DNA from: Carbonactinospora thermoautotrophica
Lineage (GTDB): Bacteria; Actinomycetota; Actinomycetes; Streptomycetales; Carbonactinosporaceae
Reading direction: 5' to 3'
Assembly: GCF_001543895.1 (NCBI RefSeq)
Contig: NZ_JYIJ01000014.1
Location: 248,001-312,000, forward strand
Length of the DNA: 64,000 nucleotides
In this document: positions 38,968-51,731 of the stretch, piece by piece
Layout: each line of letters begins with the position of its first letter
Position numbering within the stretch: the stretch's first letter is position 1
Program-made: the position numbers and the translations under genes
The notes under the pieces: model-generated
What the model saw: the letters and a program-made list of their open reading frames with translations, nothing else
Told to the model about the DNA's origin: nothing
Database searches by the model: none

Positions 38968-39182
38968 AAGCGGGCGGGGACGCCGGTCTTCCCCGGTTCA
39001 CACCACCTGGCGGTGAGGCGTCGCCCCGCCGCCACCGCACCACACGGTCGGCGACCCACCAGGAAACGGGCCCTATGTGTCGCTCACACTTACCTGCCGA
39101 GCCCGGGGGTGATACACCCGAAAAGTCAAAGTTTGTCGATAGCGCGGTCGCGTGTGCCGCCCGCCGGGTGGAGGTGGTCCTC
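38968..39182 (+). promoter_or_regulatory. Hydrogenase operon promoter region
   Basis: About 215 bp between the idi terminator and the hydrogenase small subunit. It contains GGGTG-ATA-CACCC (39105-39117) followed by an A-rich stretch (CGAAAAGTCAAAG), the most promoter-like part of the gap. No sigma-54 type (GG-N10-GC with TGGCA) element is evident. Confidence 0.35.
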
Positions 39183-40250
39183 ATGGCGATGACGGAACCG
39201 CAAACGCAGGCCGCCGAGGAAACCGAACGCACCATTCACATCCTGTGGATCAACGCCGGGCTGAGCTGCGACGGCGACTCGGTCGCGCTCACGGCGGCGA
39301 CGCAACCGACGATCGAGGAGATCGCGCTGGGCGGCCTACCGGGACTGCCCAAGGTCGCGATGCACTGGCCGCTCATCGACTTCGAGAGCGGCCCTTCGCA
39401 GGGCGCGGACACCTTCATCGAGTGGTTCTTCAAGGCCGACCGCGGCGAGCTGGAGCCGTTCGTCCTGGTGATCGAGGGGTCGGTCCCGAACGAGTCGATC
39501 AAGCGTGAGGGCTACTGGTGCGGGTTCGGCAACAACCCCGAGACCGGGCAGCCGATGACCACCAGCGAGTGGATCGACCGGCTCGCGCCCAAGGCACTGG
39601 CCGTGCTCGCGGCCGGTACCTGCGCCACCTACGGCGGCATCCACGCGATGGCGGGCAACCCGACGGGCGCGATGGGTGTCCCGGACTACCTGGGCTGGAA
39701 CTGGAGGTCCAAGGCGGGCATCCCGATCGTGTGCGTGCCGGGCTGCCCGATCCAGCCGGACAACCTGTCCGAGACGATCCTGTACCTGCTGTACCAGGCG
39801 AGCGGCCAGGCCCCGATGATCCCGCTGGACGAGCGGCTGCGCCCGACCTGGCTGTTCAGCCAGACGGTGCACGAGGGGTGCGACCGGGGGGGCTACTACG
39901 AGCAGGGCCAGTTCGCCACCGAGTACGGCTCCCCCAAGTGCCTGGTCAAGCTGGGCTGCTGGGGCCCGGTGGTGAAGTGCAACGTGCCCAAGCGCGGCTG
40001 GATGAACGGCATCGGCGGGTGCCCGAACGTGGGCGGCATCTGCATCGCCTGCACGATGCCGGGCTTCCCCGACAAGTTCATGCCGTTCATGGACGAGCCG
40101 CCGGGCGGGCGCGTGTCGACGACGGCGAGCGGGCTGTACGGCGGCCTGATCCGGTCGCTGCGGCGCGTCACCGCGAAGACCGTGGACACCGAGCCGAAGT
40201 GGCGGAAGAAGGGGCGCGAGCTCGTCACCGGCTACCGCCCGACCTGGTGA
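39183..40250 (+). CDS. hhyS: [NiFe]-hydrogenase small subunit, group 1h (high-affinity, oxygen-insensitive type)
   Basis: The electron-transferring Fe-S subunit of an atmospheric-H2-oxidising hydrogenase, 355 residues. ATG 39183 has GGAGGT 6 nt upstream. The proximal-cluster motif reads GLSCDGDSVAL (Cys29, Asp32): an Asp replaces one of the usual Cys, giving the 3Cys-1Asp ligation known for this group from Cupriavidus. The remaining ligands are in GTCATYGGIHAM (~141), CVPGCPIQPDN (~183), CDRGG, CLVKLGCWGPVVKCNV and CPNVGGICIACTMPGFPDK. There is no Tat signal and no C-terminal membrane anchor, as in group 1h. It is the first gene of a 14-gene array. Confidence 0.96.
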   Translation: MAMTEPQTQAAEETERTIHILWINAGLSCDGDSVALTAATQPTIEEIALGGLPGLPKVAMHWPLIDFESGPSQGADTFIEWFFKADRGELEPFVLVIEGSVPNESIKREGYWCGFGNNPETGQPMTTSEWIDRLAPKALAVLAAGTCATYGGIHAMAGNPTGAMGVPDYLGWNWRSKAGIPIVCVPGCPIQPDNLSETILYLLYQASGQAPMIPLDERLRPTWLFSQTVHEGCDRGGYYEQGQFATEYGSPKCLVKLGCWGPVVKCNVPKRGWMNGIGGCPNVGGICIACTMPGFPDKFMPFMDEPPGGRVSTTASGLYGGLIRSLRRVTAKTVDTEPKWRKKGRELVTGYRPTW

Positions 40251-40269
40251 CGAAGGAGGCAGGACACGA

Positions 40270-42066
40270 ATGGTCGAGATCAGGGAGCCGGCGGCCGAGC
40301 CTGGTCAGCTCGTCGAGATGGCCTGGGACCCGATCACCCGGATCGTGGGCAGCCTGGGCATCTACGCGAAGGTCGACTTCAAGAACAAGCGGGTCGCGGA
40401 GTGCTACAGCACCTCCTCGATCTTCCGCGGCTACAGCATCTTCATGAAGGGCAAGGACCCCCGGGACGCGCACTTCATCACCAGCCGGATTTGCGGCATC
40501 TGCGGCGACAACCACGCGACCTGCTCGGTCTACGCCCAGAACATGGCCTACGGGGTGCGCCCACCCCACCTGGGGGAGTGGATCATCAACCTCGGCGAGG
40601 CCGCCGAGTACATGTTCGACCACAACATCTACCAGGAGAACCTGGTCGGGGTGGACTACTGCGAGAAGATGGTCCGCGAGACCAACCCCGGGGTGCTGGC
40701 GCAGGCCGAGCGGACCGAGGCCCCGCACGCCGCCGAGCACGGGTACCGGACGATCGCGGACATCATGCGGTCGCTGAACCCGCTGGAGGGGGAGTTCTAC
40801 CGCGAGGCGCTGCAGATGAGCCGCACCACGCGGGAGATGTTCTGCCTGATGGAGGGGCGGCACGTCCACCCGTCCACCCTGTACCCGGGCGGTGTCGGCA
40901 CGGTCGCGACCGTGCAGCTGTTCACCGACTACCTGACCCGCCTGATGCGGTACGTGGAGTTCCTGAAACGGGTCGTGCCGATGCACGACGACCTGTTCGA
41001 CTTCTTCTACCAGGCACTGCCCGGGTATGAGCAGGTCGGCCAGCGGCGGGTGCTGCTGGGCTGCTGGGGCAGCTTCAACGACCCCGACCACTGCGACTTC
41101 ACCTACGAGCACATGTCCGACTGGGGCCGGCGCATGTTCGTGACGCCGGGGATCATCGTCGACGGCAACCTGCTCACCAATGACCTGGTCGACATCAACC
41201 TGGGCATCCGCATCCTGCTCGGCAGCTCCTACTACGAGGACTGGGAGGACGAGGAGCTGTTCGTCACCGAGGACCCGCTCGGCAACCCCGTCGACCGGCG
41301 CCACCCGTGGAACCAGCACACGATCCCCAAGCCGCAGAAACGGGACTTCACCGGCAAGTACAGCTGGGTGATGTCGCCCCGCTGGTACGACGGGGAGAAG
41401 TACCTGCCGCTGGACACCGGCGGCGGCCCGTTCGCCCGGCTGTGGTCCACCGCGCTGTCGGGCCTGGTGGACATCGGCTACGTGAAAGCGACCGGCGACA
41501 GCGTGGTGATCAACCTGCCGAAGACCGCCACCAAGCCGGAGAAGACCTTCGAGTGGAAGATCCCCCGCCGCGACGGCCAACTGATGAGCAACACGCTGGA
41601 ACGCAACCGCGCCCGCACCTACTTCCAGGCGTACGCGGCGGCCTGCGCGCTGTACTTCGTCGACCAGGCCCTCGCGGAGGTCCGGGCCGGGCACACCAAG
41701 ACCTGGACGCCGTTCACGGTCCCGGACGAGGCGATCAGCTGCGGCTTCACCGAAGCGGTGCGCGGCCTGCTGTCCCACCACATGGTGATCCGCAACGGCA
41801 AGATCGCCAACTACCACCCGTACCCGCCCACCCCGTGGAACGCCAGCGTGCGCGACGTGTACGGCACCCCCGGGCCGTATGAGGACGCGGTGCAGAACAC
41901 CCCGATCTTCGAGGAGAACCCGCCGGAGAACTTCAAAGGCATCGACATCATGCGCACGGTGCGCAGCTTCGACCCGTGCCTGCCGTGCGGGGTGCACATG
42001 TACCTGGGCGGGGGCACGGTGCTGCGCAAGATCCACTCCCCGACCATGTTCCAGACGGGAGGCTAG
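40270..42066 (+). CDS. hhyL: [NiFe]-hydrogenase large subunit, group 1h
   Basis: The catalytic H2-splitting subunit, 598 residues, binding the Ni-Fe(CN)2CO centre through RICGICGDNH (L1, ~74-83) and DPCLPCGVHMYL (L2, ~570-581). The L1 and L2 forms and the short region after the last Cys-x2-Cys-x2-His are typical of the high-affinity actinobacterial enzyme that scavenges atmospheric H2. About 21 residues follow HMYL, a plausible peptide for the protease at 45540. AAGGAGG precedes ATG 40270, 19 bp after hhyS. The long antisense frame over this gene is not real. Confidence 0.97.
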   Translation: MVEIREPAAEPGQLVEMAWDPITRIVGSLGIYAKVDFKNKRVAECYSTSSIFRGYSIFMKGKDPRDAHFITSRICGICGDNHATCSVYAQNMAYGVRPPHLGEWIINLGEAAEYMFDHNIYQENLVGVDYCEKMVRETNPGVLAQAERTEAPHAAEHGYRTIADIMRSLNPLEGEFYREALQMSRTTREMFCLMEGRHVHPSTLYPGGVGTVATVQLFTDYLTRLMRYVEFLKRVVPMHDDLFDFFYQALPGYEQVGQRRVLLGCWGSFNDPDHCDFTYEHMSDWGRRMFVTPGIIVDGNLLTNDLVDINLGIRILLGSSYYEDWEDEELFVTEDPLGNPVDRRHPWNQHTIPKPQKRDFTGKYSWVMSPRWYDGEKYLPLDTGGGPFARLWSTALSGLVDIGYVKATGDSVVINLPKTATKPEKTFEWKIPRRDGQLMSNTLERNRARTYFQAYAAACALYFVDQALAEVRAGHTKTWTPFTVPDEAISCGFTEAVRGLLSHHMVIRNGKIANYHPYPPTPWNASVRDVYGTPGPYEDAVQNTPIFEENPPENFKGIDIMRTVRSFDPCLPCGVHMYLGGGTVLRKIHSPTMFQTGG

Positions 42067-46156: not shown

Positions 46157-46196
46157 CCCGCCCGGGTCGGGTGGGCGGCTGGTGAGGAGGCCGGAC

Positions 46197-46553
46197 ATGC
46201 ACGAGGTAGGGCTGTGCGAGGCGATCCTCGACGCGGTCGAGCGGCGCGCCGCGGGCCGCCCGGTGCGGGCGGTCAAGGTACGCGTCGGCGCGCTGCACCG
46301 GGTCGTGGACTCGGCCATGGACAGCGCGTTCGCGATGGTGGCCACCGGCACGGTCGCCGAGCACGCGCGTATCGACCTGGTCGTCATCCCGGTGCGGTGC
46401 CGCTGCCCAGAGTGCGGGGCGCAGACCGAGGCCGAGGAGATGGTCGCGGTGTGCCCGCGGTGCGGGGCCACCGGGATGGAGCTGTTGTCCGGCGATGAGC
46501 TGCTGCTGGAGTCGATCACGCTCGCACCGGGCCGTCACGAGGAAGGGGCCTGA
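46197..46553 (+). CDS. hypA: Hydrogenase nickel incorporation protein HypA
   Basis: A 118-residue Ni metallochaperone. The N-terminal MHEVGL supplies His2, the Ni ligand. The zinc site is CRCPECGAQTEAEE...CPRCGATG (~68-90). GAGGAGG lies 6 nt before ATG 46197. No hypB (the GTPase partner) occurs in this window. It begins a second sub-cluster of the array (hypA-C-D-E), 40 bp after the tiny membrane protein. Confidence 0.95.
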   Translation: MHEVGLCEAILDAVERRAAGRPVRAVKVRVGALHRVVDSAMDSAFAMVATGTVAEHARIDLVVIPVRCRCPECGAQTEAEEMVAVCPRCGATGMELLSGDELLLESITLAPGRHEEGA

Positions 46554-46555
46554 CC

Positions 46556-46828
46556 ATGTGCCTGGGAATCCCGGGGGAAGTCATCGAGATCGTCGAGGAG
46601 ACCCCCGATCTGGCCCGGGTGAACGTCGCCGGCGTGCGGCGGGCCATCAACATCGGCCTGCTGCAGGGCCAGGAGCTGAACCCGGGCGACTGGGTGCTCA
46701 TCCACGTCGGCTTCGCGCTGTCGAAGATCGACGAGGACGAGGCCAAGGCCGCCCTCGCGTTTTTGGAGGACATCGGCCAGGCCTACGCCGAGGAGCTGAA
46801 GGCCCTCCAGCAGTCCAACATCACCTGA
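46556..46828 (+). CDS. hypC: HypC/HupF hydrogenase maturation chaperone
   Basis: A 90-residue chaperone that carries the Fe(CN)2CO unit with HypD. It has the canonical MCLGIPGEVIEI start, so Cys2 is the Fe-binding residue after Met removal. LNPGDWVLIHVGFALSKIDEDEA (~42-64) is the family-typical middle, followed by a helical tail. It starts 2 bp after hypA. A second, divergent HypC-like gene lies at 50459 on the other strand. Confidence 0.96.
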   Translation: MCLGIPGEVIEIVEETPDLARVNVAGVRRAINIGLLQGQELNPGDWVLIHVGFALSKIDEDEAKAALAFLEDIGQAYAEELKALQQSNIT

Positions 46829-46867
46829 CCGCGCCCGCGGGAAGGGACCCGCGGGAAGGGAGGAGCC

Positions 46868-47995
46868 GTGCGTTTCGTCGACGAGTTCCGCGACGCGGAC
46901 AAGGCCCGTGCGCTCGCCGCGCAGATCACCGCCTTGTGCGAGCCGGGCCGGCACTACAAGTTCATGGAGGTCTGCGGCGGCCACACGCACACGATCTACA
47001 AGCACGGGCTGGAGGACTACCTGCCGGAAAGCATCACGCTCGTCCACGGCCCAGGCTGCCCGGTCTGCGTCATCCCGATGGGCCGCGTGGACGACGCCAT
47101 CGCGATCGCCCAGACCCCTGGGGTGATCATGACCTCGTTCGGGGACATGATGCGGGTGCCCGGGGGCCGGGGATCGTTCTTCGACGCCAAGGCGGCTGGT
47201 GCGGACATCCGCATGGTGTACTCGCCGCTGGACGCCTTGAAGATCGCCCGCAAGAACCCGGACAAGCAGGTCGTCTTCATGGCGATCGGTTTTGAGACCA
47301 CCGCGCCGTCGACCGCGATGACGGTGCTGCGGGCAGCGGCTGAGGGGATCGAGAACTTCTCGATCTTCTGCAACCACGTGACGATCATCCCGGCGATCAA
47401 GGCGATCCTGGACTCTCCGGACCTGCGCCTGGACGGCTTCATCGGCCCCGGTCACGTCTCCACGGTGATCGGTTGCCGGCCGTATGAGTTCATCGCCCGC
47501 GACTACGGCAAGCCGCTGGTCGTCGCCGGGTTCGAGCCGCTGGACATCCTGCAGTCGATCTACATGATCCTCGAACAGCTCGCCGAGGGCCGGTGCGAGG
47601 TGGAAAACCAGTACACCCGCGTGGTGCCCTGGCAGGGCAACCGCAAGGCGCTGGAGGTCATCGGCGAGGTCATGGAGCTGCGGCCGTACTTCGAGTGGCG
47701 CGGGCTCGGCTTCATCTCCCACTCCGCGCTGCGGGTGCGCGAAGGCTACGCCGCCTACGACGCCGAGCGGATCTTCCCCGTGCCCGGCGTGCGGGTCGCC
47801 GACCCCAAGGCGTGCCAGTGCGGTGAGGTACTCAAAGGCGTGCTCAAGCCGTGGGAGTGCAAGGTGTTCGGGACCGCGTGCACCCCGGAGACGCCGATCG
47901 GCACCTGCATGGTGTCCGCAGAAGGCGCCTGCGCCGCGTACTACAACTTCGGCCGCTTCACCCGGGAGCGGGTCAAGGAGGCGACGCGGACATGA
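46868..47995 (+). CDS. hypD: Hydrogenase maturation protein HypD
   Basis: A 375-residue scaffold on which Fe(CN)2CO is assembled, working with HypC and HypE. The conserved motifs are KFMEVCGGHTHTIYKHGLED (~31-50), GPGCPVCVIPMGRVD (~61-75), FETTAPSTA, GFIGPGHVSTVIG, and the C-terminal 4Fe-4S cysteines in ACQCGEVLKGVLKPWECKVFG, CTPETPIGTCMVSAEGACAAYY (~318-362). GAGG lies just before GTG 46868. It overlaps hypE by 4 bp. Confidence 0.96.
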   Translation: MRFVDEFRDADKARALAAQITALCEPGRHYKFMEVCGGHTHTIYKHGLEDYLPESITLVHGPGCPVCVIPMGRVDDAIAIAQTPGVIMTSFGDMMRVPGGRGSFFDAKAAGADIRMVYSPLDALKIARKNPDKQVVFMAIGFETTAPSTAMTVLRAAAEGIENFSIFCNHVTIIPAIKAILDSPDLRLDGFIGPGHVSTVIGCRPYEFIARDYGKPLVVAGFEPLDILQSIYMILEQLAEGRCEVENQYTRVVPWQGNRKALEVIGEVMELRPYFEWRGLGFISHSALRVREGYAAYDAERIFPVPGVRVADPKACQCGEVLKGVLKPWECKVFGTACTPETPIGTCMVSAEGACAAYYNFGRFTRERVKEATRT

Positions 47996-49158
47996 CCACC
48001 TCCGACCCCTCGACGTCCGCGGAGTGGGCCGAGCGGGCGGTGCGGGAGTCGCTGCACGAGCACGGCCGCGAACCCGGACAAGAGCACCTGGGCCGGGAGG
48101 AGCAGGTGCTGCGGCGCATCGAGAAGGCGCGCCGCCGCAAGCCCCGGATCACCGAGGAGCGCATCACGCTCGCCCACGGCTCCGGCGGCAAGGCCACCCA
48201 CACCCTGATCGACGCGGTGTTCCTGGAGGCGTTCCGCAACCCGCTGCTGGAGCCCCTGGAGGACGGGGCGGTCCTGTCGGTCCACGGCTCCCGGCTGGTG
48301 TTCACAACCGACTCGTTCGTGGTCGCGCCCCTGTTCTTCCCCGGCGGCGACATCGGGGACCTGGCCGTCAACGGCACCGTGAACGACCTGGCCGTGTGCG
48401 GGGCCCGGCCGCTGTATCTTTCGGCCGGGTTCATCCTGGAGGAGGGCTTCGAAGTCGCCGCCCTGCAGCGGATCGTCGCCTCCATGGCACGCGCCGCCGA
48501 GGCGGCCGGGGTGCAGGTCGTGACCGGCGACACCAAGGTGGTGCAGCGCGGCAAGGCCGACGGCTGCTACGTGAACACCGCCGGGGTCGGCGTCCTGGAC
48601 CGCCCGGTCAGCCTGAGCGCGGCGGCTGCCCGCCCCGGGGACGCCGTGATCGTCTCCGGTCCCATCGGCGAACACGGCATCACGATCATGTTGGCCCGCG
48701 GGGAACTGGACATCGAGACCGACCTGGTGTCGGACACCGCGCCCGTGCACGAGCTGGTGCGCGGCCTGCTGGACGCCGTCCCCGGCGTCCGGGCGCTGCG
48801 TGACGCCACCCGCGGCGGGGTGGCGACGATCCTCAACGAGGTCGCCGCCGCCTCCGGGGTCGCGGTCGTCGTCGAGGAGGACGCCGTCCCGGTCCGGCCC
48901 GAGGTGGTGGGCGCCTGCGAGCTGCTCGGCATCGACCCGCTGTACGTCGCCTGCGAGGGCCGGTTCGTGGCCGTCGTCGACGGCGGGCAGGCCGACCGGG
49001 CGCTGCAGGTGCTGCGACGTCACCCGCTGGGCGAGGGCGCCGCCGTGATCGGCCGGATCAAGGACGACCCGCCCGGCCTGGTGCTGCTCAAGACCGTTTT
49101 CGGCGGCACCCGGATCGTCGACATGCTCGTCGGCGACCCGCTGCCGCGTATCTGCTGA
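47992..49158 (+). CDS. hypE: Hydrogenase maturation protein HypE, with N-terminal extension
   Basis: Dehydrates the thiocarboxamide on its C-terminal Cys to thiocyanate, the cyanide source for the active site. It has 388 residues, ~45 more than usual: residues 1-50 are a charged helical extension (EWAERAVRESLHEHGREPGQ) before the normal start ERITLAHGSGGKATH. ATP and core motifs are TTDSFVVAPLFFPGGDIGDLAVNGTVNDLAVCGA (~103-136), VTGDTKVV, RDATRGGVATILNE and EGRFVAVVDG. The C-terminus is PRIC, with the essential terminal Cys. ATGA overlap with hypD. HypF, which charges HypE, is not in this window. Confidence 0.96.
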   Translation: MTTSDPSTSAEWAERAVRESLHEHGREPGQEHLGREEQVLRRIEKARRRKPRITEERITLAHGSGGKATHTLIDAVFLEAFRNPLLEPLEDGAVLSVHGSRLVFTTDSFVVAPLFFPGGDIGDLAVNGTVNDLAVCGARPLYLSAGFILEEGFEVAALQRIVASMARAAEAAGVQVVTGDTKVVQRGKADGCYVNTAGVGVLDRPVSLSAAAARPGDAVIVSGPIGEHGITIMLARGELDIETDLVSDTAPVHELVRGLLDAVPGVRALRDATRGGVATILNEVAAASGVAVVVEEDAVPVRPEVVGACELLGIDPLYVACEGRFVAVVDGGQADRALQVLRRHPLGEGAAVIGRIKDDPPGLVLLKTVFGGTRIVDMLVGDPLPRIC

Positions 49159-49802: not shown

Positions 49803-50462
49803 TCAGGCCGGCGCGGCCGCGAGCGCCCGCTGGGTCAGCTCCCACAGCACGTGGTAGGCGGTGGTCTGCGCCTCCTGGATGCGGTGGACAGAAGAGGACG
49901 GCACCACGAACAGGTAGTCGATCGTGCCCGCCTCGGCCATCTTGCCGCCCTGGTAGCCGGCGAACCCGACGGTCAGCAGGCCGCGGCGGCTGGCCTCGTC
50001 GAACGCGCGCAGCACGTTCGCGGAGCCGCCGCTGGTGGACAGCCCGAGCGCGATGTCCCCTCCCCGCCCCCAGGCCGCGATCTGGCGGGCGAAGACGACC
50101 TCGAAGCCCACGTCGTTGGACAGGGCGGTGACCACGGCGATGTCGTTGGTCAGCGAGATCGCCGGCAGCGGCCGGTAGCCGGGCGCGGGACAGCAGAACA
50201 ACTGCGTCACCGCCTGGGCGTCGCTGCTGCTGCCGCCGTTGCCGAACGTGAACAGCCGCCCGCCGGCCGCGAACGACCGGGCCATCGCTTCGGCGCACTC
50301 GACCAGCAGGTCCCCGTACCGCTCAGCCATGGTCCGGCGCAGCTCGACGATCTCCTGCGCCTTCTCCTCGGTCGACCGGCGGACCTCGGCGAGCACCGCC
50401 GCCACGTCACTGTCCTTGGCGTACAAGAACGGGTACAGCGACTCGAAGCCACCCTCGCTCAT
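49803..50462 (-). CDS. SIS-domain protein (phosphoheptose isomerase GmhA-like), second copy
   Basis: A 219-residue sugar-isomerase-fold protein, last gene of a four-gene minus-strand operon. The GmhA-like phosphate loop is LFTFGNGGSSSDAQAVTQLF (~70-89), then LGLSTSGGSANVLRAFDEA (~142-160). The N-terminal helices and the EAQTTAYHVLWELTQRAL end (~198-215) are GmhA-like. The metal-binding His of true GmhA (ADAQHFAAE) is not conserved here (DAQAVTQ), so the substrate or activity may differ. ATG 50462 overlaps the HypC-like stop (ATGA). Actinobacteria lack LPS heptose, so a sedoheptulose-phosphate or other role is needed. Confidence 0.88.
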   Translation of the reverse strand: MSEGGFESLYPFLYAKDSDVAAVLAEVRRSTEEKAQEIVELRRTMAERYGDLLVECAEAMARSFAAGGRLFTFGNGGSSSDAQAVTQLFCCPAPGYRPLPAISLTNDIAVVTALSNDVGFEVVFARQIAAWGRGGDIALGLSTSGGSANVLRAFDEASRRGLLTVGFAGYQGGKMAEAGTIDYLFVVPSSSVHRIQEAQTTAYHVLWELTQRALAAAPA

Positions 50463-50704
50463 GGCGGCTCCTCCAGCACGGCGATAGCCTCCTTGGCGTG
50501 CACCAGCACCCGGTCACCGGCCTTGGCGTCCACCAAGGCGACGCTGATCTCCTCGCCGGTGTCCACCAGGGCGAGCCCGTCGTCCAGCAGTTCGGTGACG
50601 CGCACGGCCACGGCCTCGTCCGAGCAGGTCACGCACACCTCGGCGTGGCATTCGGGCGCGGCCCGGCGGCGGGGTGGGACAGCCGGGGTCGGCAAGGTGG
50701 TCAT
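50459..50704 (-). CDS. Divergent HypC-like protein of the SIS operon
   Basis: An 81-residue HypC/HupF-family protein. The core reads CVTCSDEAVAVRVTELLDDG, then ISVALVDAKAGDRVLVHAKEAIAVL, which is the HypC barrel, but preceded by a ~24-residue basic/Pro extension (LPTPAVPPRRRAAPECHAEV). There is thus no Met-Cys start, and the usual Cys2 Fe ligand is replaced by internal Cys at ~19, 24 and 27. It is coupled by 4-bp overlaps to SIS genes on both sides. It differs clearly from the canonical hypC at 46556 and is likely specialised. Confidence 0.88.
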   Translation of the reverse strand: MTTLPTPAVPPRRRAAPECHAEVCVTCSDEAVAVRVTELLDDGLALVDTGEEISVALVDAKAGDRVLVHAKEAIAVLEEPP

Positions 50705-51318
50705 CGCACGACCTCCGGATCGAGCAGGCCGGGCTGTTCGAAGAACACGTGCACCAGCTCCCACAGGATGTGGTAGATCGTGACGTGGATCTCCTTGACC
50801 ACCTGCGGCTCCTCGGAGTGGGCGACCAGCGCGTGGTCGACGGCCGGGCTGCGGGCGATCTCCCCGCCGTCGCCGCCGGTCAGCGCCACGGTGAGCAAGC
50901 CACGCCCGTGCGCCACCTCCAGCCCCCGCAGCACGTTGCGGCACTGCCCGTCCGGTGAGATGCCGAGCGCGATGTCGCGGGAGTCGGCCAACAGCTCCAG
51001 CTGGGCCGCGTACACCTCGTCGAACCCTTGTGTCCGCGCCACCCCGGTGAGCGTCGCGACGTCGTTGGTCAGCGCCATCGCCGGCAGCGCGCGCTTGCCG
51101 ACGATCACCGGGTGGATGAACTCGACCGCGACGTGGTGGCCGTCGGTGGCCGCGCCGCCGTTGCCGAACACCACCAGCTTGCCGCCGCGGTGGAACCGCA
51201 CCGCCATGTCGTAGCACGCCCGCGCCACCCGCTCGGCGTCCCCCGCGAGGGCCCGCCCGGGGCCGACGCGGCGGGTGAACGCCTCCAGCGCCGGGGCTGC
51301 CGCCGCCTGTGCACTCAT
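50701..51318 (-). CDS. SIS-domain protein (phosphoheptose isomerase GmhA-like), first copy
   Basis: 205 residues, GmhA-like SIS fold. The phosphate loop is LVVFGNGGAATDGHHVAVEFIHP (~48-70), keeping a His-His pair where GmhA has its metal His. LGISPDGQCRNVLRGLEVA (~119-137) lacks the usual SxSGxS second loop (it has SPDG), and EIHVTIYHILWELVHVFF (~175-192) ends the domain. It is only distantly similar to the second copy, so the two are not a recent tandem duplication. ATGA overlaps link it to the PadR gene upstream and the HypC-like gene downstream. Confidence 0.88.
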   Translation of the reverse strand: MSAQAAAAPALEAFTRRVGPGRALAGDAERVARACYDMAVRFHRGGKLVVFGNGGAATDGHHVAVEFIHPVIVGKRALPAMALTNDVATLTGVARTQGFDEVYAAQLELLADSRDIALGISPDGQCRNVLRGLEVAHGRGLLTVALTGGDGGEIARSPAVDHALVAHSEEPQVVKEIHVTIYHILWELVHVFFEQPGLLDPEVVR

Positions 51319-51731
51319 CCTGACTCCTCTCCTGGCGGGCTCGCGCGTGCCGTGCCCGACCCGACCGCCCGCCGGCGGACCAGGTCACCGGCGCTGGGGC
51401 CCTGCTGCAGGCCGTTCCACCGCGCGAGGTACCCCTCCAGCACGTCCCGGGCCTCCTCGGCCACGTGCGCCCAGGCGCCGAGGGTCGCGCACCCCTTGAG
51501 CGTCAGGTAGTAGATGCGGCGGGAGGGCCCGCACGTCGACGCCGTCCACTCCGACCGGACGAGATCCTCCCGCTCCAGGGAGCGCAACGCCCGGTACACG
51601 CGCCCGGGGTCCCCGTTGCCCACCCCGAGCGTCTTCAGCCGTTCGATCAGCTTGTACCCGTGGTCGGGATGCTCGCGAAGCAACAGCAAAAGGCACGGTT
51701 CCAGGAACGACCTGAGAGCGCCGCCTTCCAT
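51315..51731 (-). CDS. PadR-family transcriptional regulator
   Basis: A 138-residue PadR-type winged-helix regulator, first gene of the SIS-HypC operon. LEPCLLLLLREHPDHGYKLIERLKTLGVGNGDPGRVYRALRSLEREDLVRSEW (~10-62) is the PadR core; a helical dimerisation tail follows (HVAEEARDVLEGYLARW). The start ATG 51731 gives a family-like N-terminus. Its stop overlaps the first SIS start. It probably autoregulates the operon and may respond to the same signal as the hydrogenase genes; no operator is obvious upstream. Confidence 0.9.
   Translation of the reverse strand: MEGGALRSFLEPCLLLLLREHPDHGYKLIERLKTLGVGNGDPGRVYRALRSLEREDLVRSEWTASTCGPSRRIYYLTLKGCATLGAWAHVAEEARDVLEGYLARWNGLQQGPSAGDLVRRRAVGSGTARASPPGEESG

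Follow-up and report, generated by a model that had tools for sequence, protein, structure and literature searches.

How [NiFe]-hydrogenases without HypX obtain their CO ligand has been ranked as the most pressing question still open in the field, and mutants that fail specifically in CO synthesis have yet to be described (PMC12134894). Several known systems bear on the locus studied here. HypX, a formyl-THF decarbonylase and source of the CO ligand, is an accessory gene of aerobic hyp/hydrogenase clusters. The chaperones HypC, HybG and HupF are small β-barrels (PF01455) with a Met-Cys start, whose Cys2 binds the iron group. GmhA, a D-sedoheptulose 7-phosphate isomerase, and DiaA have the SIS fold.

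A connection between such SIS proteins and hydrogenases is already in print. A 2018 study draws gmhA beside group 1h loci without explanation (PMC5900883), and a GmhA-HypD-HypE association, listed in 2011 by DENSE, is called unexplained there (PMC3231954). A 2025 neighbourhood study likewise found a SIS cluster among hydrogenase neighbours. The original view for the present locus, that HypC proteins have no link to sugar isomerases, is therefore not supported, given the reports of 2011 and 2018. In their available parts those two reports describe the genomic linkage treated below but neither a HypC-like partner nor a split site, a HypD clade, an exclusion of HypX or a mechanism; no description of the first four was found in the openly readable literature.

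The window is a stretch of 64,000 nucleotides from Carbonactinospora thermoautotrophica (contig NZ_JYIJ01000014.1). Its relevant features are:

39075..42066, plus strand: hhyS-hhyL, small and large subunits of a group 1h hydrogenase, assigned by homology to annotated group 1h genes
46556..46828, plus strand: canonical HypC with Met-Cys start (PF01455, 1.7e-25)
46868..47995, plus strand: HypD of the SIS-type clade (HypD trees), the putative docking partner
47834..47836, plus strand: codon of HypD Lys323, between the [4Fe-4S] ligands C318 and C331
47992..49158, plus strand: HypE (ORF and homology)
49803..50462, minus strand: SIS-B (SIS2; PF13580, SIS_2, 1.1e-14)
50459..50704, minus strand: HypCL, HypC-like (PF01455, 7.6e-07)
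50624..50635, minus strand: CVTC motif of HypCL, residues 24-27, invariant in the family
50701..51318, minus strand: SIS-A (SIS1; PF13580, SIS_2, 1e-13)
51315..51731, minus strand: PadR-family regulator (PF03551, 1.9e-16, 60.2 bits against a gathering score of 27)

As originally predicted, the PadR, SIS-A, HypCL and SIS-B genes (49803-51731) overlap one another by 4 bp at three junctions (51315-51318, 50701-50704 and 50459-50462), and the block runs towards the convergent hypA-C-D-E genes (46182-49158, plus strand), which lie behind hhyS/hhyL. A promoter/terminator scan found nothing. The regulator, which had been taken as a member of the unit, did not hold its place. The window hhyS-hhyL was compared with 80 group 1h loci of named actinobacteria (81-91% identity), of which 26 carry SIS-A and SIS-B, mostly directly upstream of hhyS. 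None of these 26 carries PadR; a PadR of the window kind was found at one of the 80, a locus from which the SIS genes are absent. PadR is thus a local neighbour, translationally coupled here, and the conserved unit is SIS-A, HypCL and SIS-B. The PadR protein resembles the polyhydroxybutyrate-responsive repressor PhaQ (TIGR02719, 3e-23, under the cut-off).

The same genome holds a second copy. Another contig (positions 158000-177000) carries a group 2a (Huc) [NiFe] hydrogenase, which shares 85% identity with Huc from a M. intracellulare plasmid. Its separate hyp operon has the order hypF, hypC, SIS-A fused to HypCL, SIS-B, hypE, hypC, hypD. Here the module is embedded in the maturation operon itself, and PadR is excluded from it.

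HypCL narrowly passes PF01455 (29.6 bits, gathering score 28.5) and fails the NCBI HypC profile TIGR00074 (14.5 bits, cut-off 48). A search of PDB sequences with HypCL gave nothing useful. Its AlphaFold model, with pLDDT above 90 for most of the barrel, is that of a HypC fold: the four best PDB matches are all HypC (3vyt_A, 2z1c and 3vyr among them), with a TM score of 0.82 (target-normalised) against 3vyt_A, at Foldseek E values that are modest (at least 0.004; 4e-03 for 3vyt_A). The original description of HypCL as a HypC paralogue without the Met-Cys start was borne out, as none of 21 diverse aligned members has one. The nearest cysteines are those of an internal C-x-T-C, invariant in the alignment and C-V-T-C in the window protein. 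HypCL therefore shares with the HypC/HybG/HupF chaperones the small β-barrel, the PF01455 match and the best structural matches; unlike them it lacks Cys2, stands beside a canonical HypC and is found fused to SIS domains. The gene order hypC-HypCL-hypD only suggests that HypCL may bind HypD and the large-subunit precursor.

The two SIS proteins had been described as distantly related, with only one of them GmhA-like. In fact they are 42% identical over 153 residues and the label fits both about equally. The AlphaFold model of SIS-A has its best PDB matches in GmhA and DiaA (1tk9, 5i01, 2xbl, 2yva; TM about 0.8), and SIS-fold sensors such as RccR with KDPG (8k3b) are also among the fold matches. 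Against the GmhA equivalog TIGR00441 the two proteins score 115.3 and 127.6 bits and fail the cut-off of 209. The active-site residues were compared in E. coli GmhA numbering, and GmhA chains from the PDB show these motifs in the same alignment positions. SIS-A keeps the catalytic/metal residues H61 (60/60), E65 (59/60) and H180 (59/59), which are H62, E66 and H183 in the window protein, and has lost the phosphate loop, with T120, S121, S124 and R170 missing. SIS-B keeps the phosphate-binding residues S55, D94, T120, S121, S124, R170 and Q172, each in 61 of 61 sequences, as an STSGGS loop with R/Q/E, and has H61 and E65 in none of the 61. The complete site (S55, H61, E65, S119-S124, Q172, H180) is thus found in neither, while in the six single SIS proteins of Proteobacteria it is essentially intact. 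This complementary loss is the pattern expected from a duplication after which one site was divided between two partners. In GmhA the active sites are formed where subunits meet, which would allow two such partners to complete each other's site. GmhA and DiaA are the closest PDB relatives and the site is intact in the proteobacterial homologue, whereas in Actinomycetota, Thermus and Sulfobacillus it is split over two paralogues within a hyp operon context.

The distribution of the module was surveyed in 297 actinobacterial genomes drawn across the phylum. HypD was present in 154, HypCL in 44 and SIS-B in 38, 36 of the latter also having HypCL (Fisher tests of co-occurrence ignored the relatedness of the genomes). 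The block was not common in genomes without a [NiFe]-hydrogenase: 43 of the 44 HypCL genomes have hypD, and in the exception (G043) hhyS/hhyL lie on the same contig, which then ends. Gene orders vary. SIS-A, HypCL and SIS-B follow hypC at two loci (L012, L013); SIS-A is fused to HypCL at three (L018, L022, L033), as in the second copy described above; HypCL is fused to SIS-B in Nonomuraea sediminis (L046); and at some loci a SIS-A-SIS-B fusion lies downstream of hypC-HypCL-hypD-hypE. Outside Actinomycetota the data come from plasmid records rather than a survey. Those of Thermus and Sulfobacillus have hypC, HypCL, hypD, hypE and a SIS-A-SIS-B fusion. Those of Cupriavidus, Afipia, Bradyrhizobium, Mesorhizobium and Sphingopyxis have hypC, a single SIS gene and hypD, and that of Methylocystis hypF, SIS and hypD, all without HypCL. 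After the fusion in the Thermus/Sulfobacillus hyp operons there is a glutaredoxin-like gene (L201 12617-12877, L202 12619-12846; Uxx-star type by the Thermus annotation), and a putative glutaredoxin is drawn beside acidobacterial group 1h loci (PMC5900883).

The hydrogenases served by the module belong to groups 1h and 2a, with a group 1d-type cluster in Afipia, which disposes of the restriction to group 1h made in the original prediction. The strict coupling of HypC and SIS proteins claimed there also fails, as Proteobacteria have one SIS protein and no HypCL and several actinobacteria have HypCL without SIS. In five of these (G429, G453, G393, G407, G463; loci L264, L265 and L267-L269) HypCL lies directly upstream of hhyS in a genome that lacks both SIS and HypX, so the role of HypCL is not confined to the SIS pair. 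In another genome (G289; L185 10083-10718) a degenerate SIS-A-HypCL fusion has lost the SIS-A core motif and SIS-B is gone, possibly a decaying copy. The module is linked to the hyp genes both phylogenetically and by operon, as is characteristic of a maturation accessory factor, and the phylum-wide co-occurrence, the position in hyp operons, the gene fusions and the single HypD clade described next point to one functional unit tied to maturation. That much of the first proposal stands, for SIS-A, HypCL and SIS-B; the PadR component and the strict coupling do not.

In trees of 79 and 95 HypDs, all 54 SIS-linked HypDs tested, from four phyla, fell in one clade (SH-aLRT 92), which spans Actinomycetota, Pseudomonadota, Thermus and Sulfobacillus; HypX-linked HypDs lie outside it. 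Similarly, the 19 records of the plasmid collection with a HypD 60-80% identical to that of the window are the SIS records. The Huc cluster of Octadecabacter is syntenic with that of Sphingopyxis but has no SIS gene, and its HypD is divergent. One residue bears on the association: Lys323, at E. coli position 328, between ligands that correspond to E. coli C323 and C336 (PMC9900092). In a first set it was Lys in 54/54 SIS-linked, 0/17 HypX-linked and 0/21 other HypDs, and the HypDs of the clade without SIS all had Thr on unusually long branches, including one (G176) whose residue was read after the absence of SIS was known. In a fresh class-level sample Lys was found in 11/11 SIS-linked HypDs, for a total of 65/65, and the three HypDs with Thr were all without SIS (3/3), so that within the clade Thr323 occurs only in SIS-less HypDs (8/8). 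As a perfect predictor of SIS, however, Lys323 failed, since 5 of the 16 Lys-bearing HypDs in the fresh sample had no SIS. The rule is therefore one-way: SIS implies Lys323 and, in the clade, Lys323 is lost only without SIS. Relatedness is only partly controlled for; independent contrasts were concordant but gave just 3-4 pairs, too few for significance.

The clade also includes HypDs from 13 genomes with no detectable SIS gene, several of them with group 1h or 2a hydrogenases; none of those searched had HypX. Three are at group 3b/3d loci (G173, G166, G176). At group 1h/2a loci, the five HypCL-only genomes listed above and G289 keep HypCL and lack HypX.

A relationship between the module and HypX was seen at the operon level. 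At the 80 hhyL loci HypX was found in 37 and SIS in 26, and both together in none; HypX in Streptomyces sits upstream of hhyS, where the triad sits elsewhere. HypX was never found inside a SIS-type operon, and in both Cupriavidus (pHG1) and Bradyrhizobium guangxiense, which possess the two systems, HypX belongs to one hyp operon and SIS to a different one. A strict exclusion between genomes is ruled out: HypX was also present in 2 of 30 SIS/HypCL genomes, with neither in 8 genomes, and the two were found together in G299, G304, G087 and G452, two Nonomuraea genomes included. As the exclusion tracks HypD phylogeny it may reflect few events. In the sampled actinobacteria HypX is largely absent outside Streptomycetaceae for the aerobic, atmosphere-scavenging Huc/Hhy hydrogenases; the window genome has no HypX above 24 bits, and the formyltransferase and enoyl-CoA hydratase-like domains of HypX are absent from the block (Pfam). 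In Acaryochloris (pREC3) and Mycetohabitans (L205, L206) HypX homologues are found by themselves, away from any hydrogenase or hyp genes, and others occur in two actinobacterial genomes without hypD (G051, G236), hinting at a role for HypX outside hydrogenase. HypX and the SIS module differ in fold and in HypD clade, and CO synthesis is proven for the former and not for the latter.

Taken together, SIS-A, HypCL and SIS-B are probably partners in a single accessory complex, which would belong to the [NiFe]-cofactor machinery and serve HypD scaffolds of one clade. SIS-A and SIS-B would have arisen by duplication of an ancestral GmhA-like enzyme, each now representing half of it, with the single, intact protein retained in Proteobacteria. 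They would combine into composite sites, the phosphorylated sugar-like ligand being held by SIS-B and the acid/base or metal residues coming from SIS-A. HypCL probably bridges the SIS pair and HypC-HypD, with the HypD residues around Lys323, beside the [4Fe-4S] cluster, as the likely contact region, and the complex would act while Fe(CN)2CO is being built on HypC-HypD. In M. smegmatis, MSMEG_2706 ('gmhA') rises with the hyp genes in stationary phase, which counts for a role in maturation (PMC5445863), and Huc from this organism shows CO and CN infrared bands (PMC10017518).

The most likely single task for such a complex, suggested here tentatively, would be to provide CO, or the carbon precursor of this ligand, in the absence of HypX. 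More speculatively, the split SIS pair and HypCL may be a non-HypX CO supply, in which a phosphorylated ketose or aldose would give CO by enediol chemistry in the composite site, and CO or a CO precursor would then pass to the HypC-HypD iron near the [4Fe-4S] lobe. Ketose-aldose isomerases form an enediol intermediate, and an analogy with Ni-acireductone dioxygenase suggests a possible chemical path from it to CO. CO supply, which the original prediction gave as an example, gains circumstantial support from the HypX exclusion and meets counter-examples in the genomes with neither SIS nor HypX. Eight Streptomycetaceae with a group 1h hhyL are of this kind, so neither is indispensable. A dedicated CO source may itself be dispensable, as HypX, the proven source, is missing in those Streptomycetaceae and about 10 nM CO outcompetes the endogenous CO precursor (PMC12134894). 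The present data neither demand CO supply by the SIS module nor speak decisively against it.

A fairly unlikely alternative is that the pair performs no ligand chemistry but senses a phosphorylated sugar, as RpiR-type SIS regulators do, and uses HypCL to retain HypC-HypD or let it go, which would limit hydrogenase maturation to a certain carbon state. SIS-B, with its whole phosphate-binding set and no catalytic residues, looks like such a sensor, the fold matches include sensors, and group 1h hydrogenases respond to starvation (PMC6883350; PMC5445863). A pure sensor, however, need not keep the equivalents of H61, E65 and H180, which are retained in essentially all SIS-A members, and the proteobacterial homologues keep a complete GmhA site. 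It is unlikely that HypCL is instead a dedicated carrier of the HypC type, serving the large subunits of groups 1h/2a in the manner of HybG, HoxL or HupF, with the SIS pair as a structural or oxygen-protective partner that has lost the use of sugars. Other paralogues of HypC do act in this way (PMC9002611, PMC3534401), HypCL has the predicted HypC fold, and the five loci with HypCL upstream of hhyS and no SIS would fit; but HypCL is without Cys2, the iron-group carrier in HypC, both half-sites are strictly conserved, contrary to a purely structural pair, and Proteobacteria have SIS without HypCL. That the SIS proteins are ordinary phosphoheptose isomerases for cell-surface sugars, adjoining hydrogenase genes by chance or hitchhiking, is highly improbable in spite of the fold and family match to GmhA, and a plain GmhA identity was rejected, given scores of about 115 and 128 against 209 bits, the half-sites, the hyp linkage in four phyla, the fusion to a HypC paralogue and the coupling to a single HypD clade.

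On the best reading, then, SIS-A/HypCL/SIS-B is an undescribed accessory module that would dock on HypC-HypD. That gmhA can lie close to hydrogenase genes was already in print. No mutant of the module was found reported in the openly readable literature. In C. necator a maturation set was assembled with hypC2/hypD2 and the intervening SIS gene omitted; it gave about a tenth of the activity, for which the cause is not known (PMC3702609). Should its role prove regulatory or structural, the SIS module would still be a component lacking from the maturation set used in heterologous production. A compact, conserved set of proteins tied to one type of HypD and bearing half-sites of a sugar-phosphate enzyme provides named genes and residues for the question of CO origin, and the module may supply, or control the making of, the iron-carbon monoxide centre of these hydrogenases.
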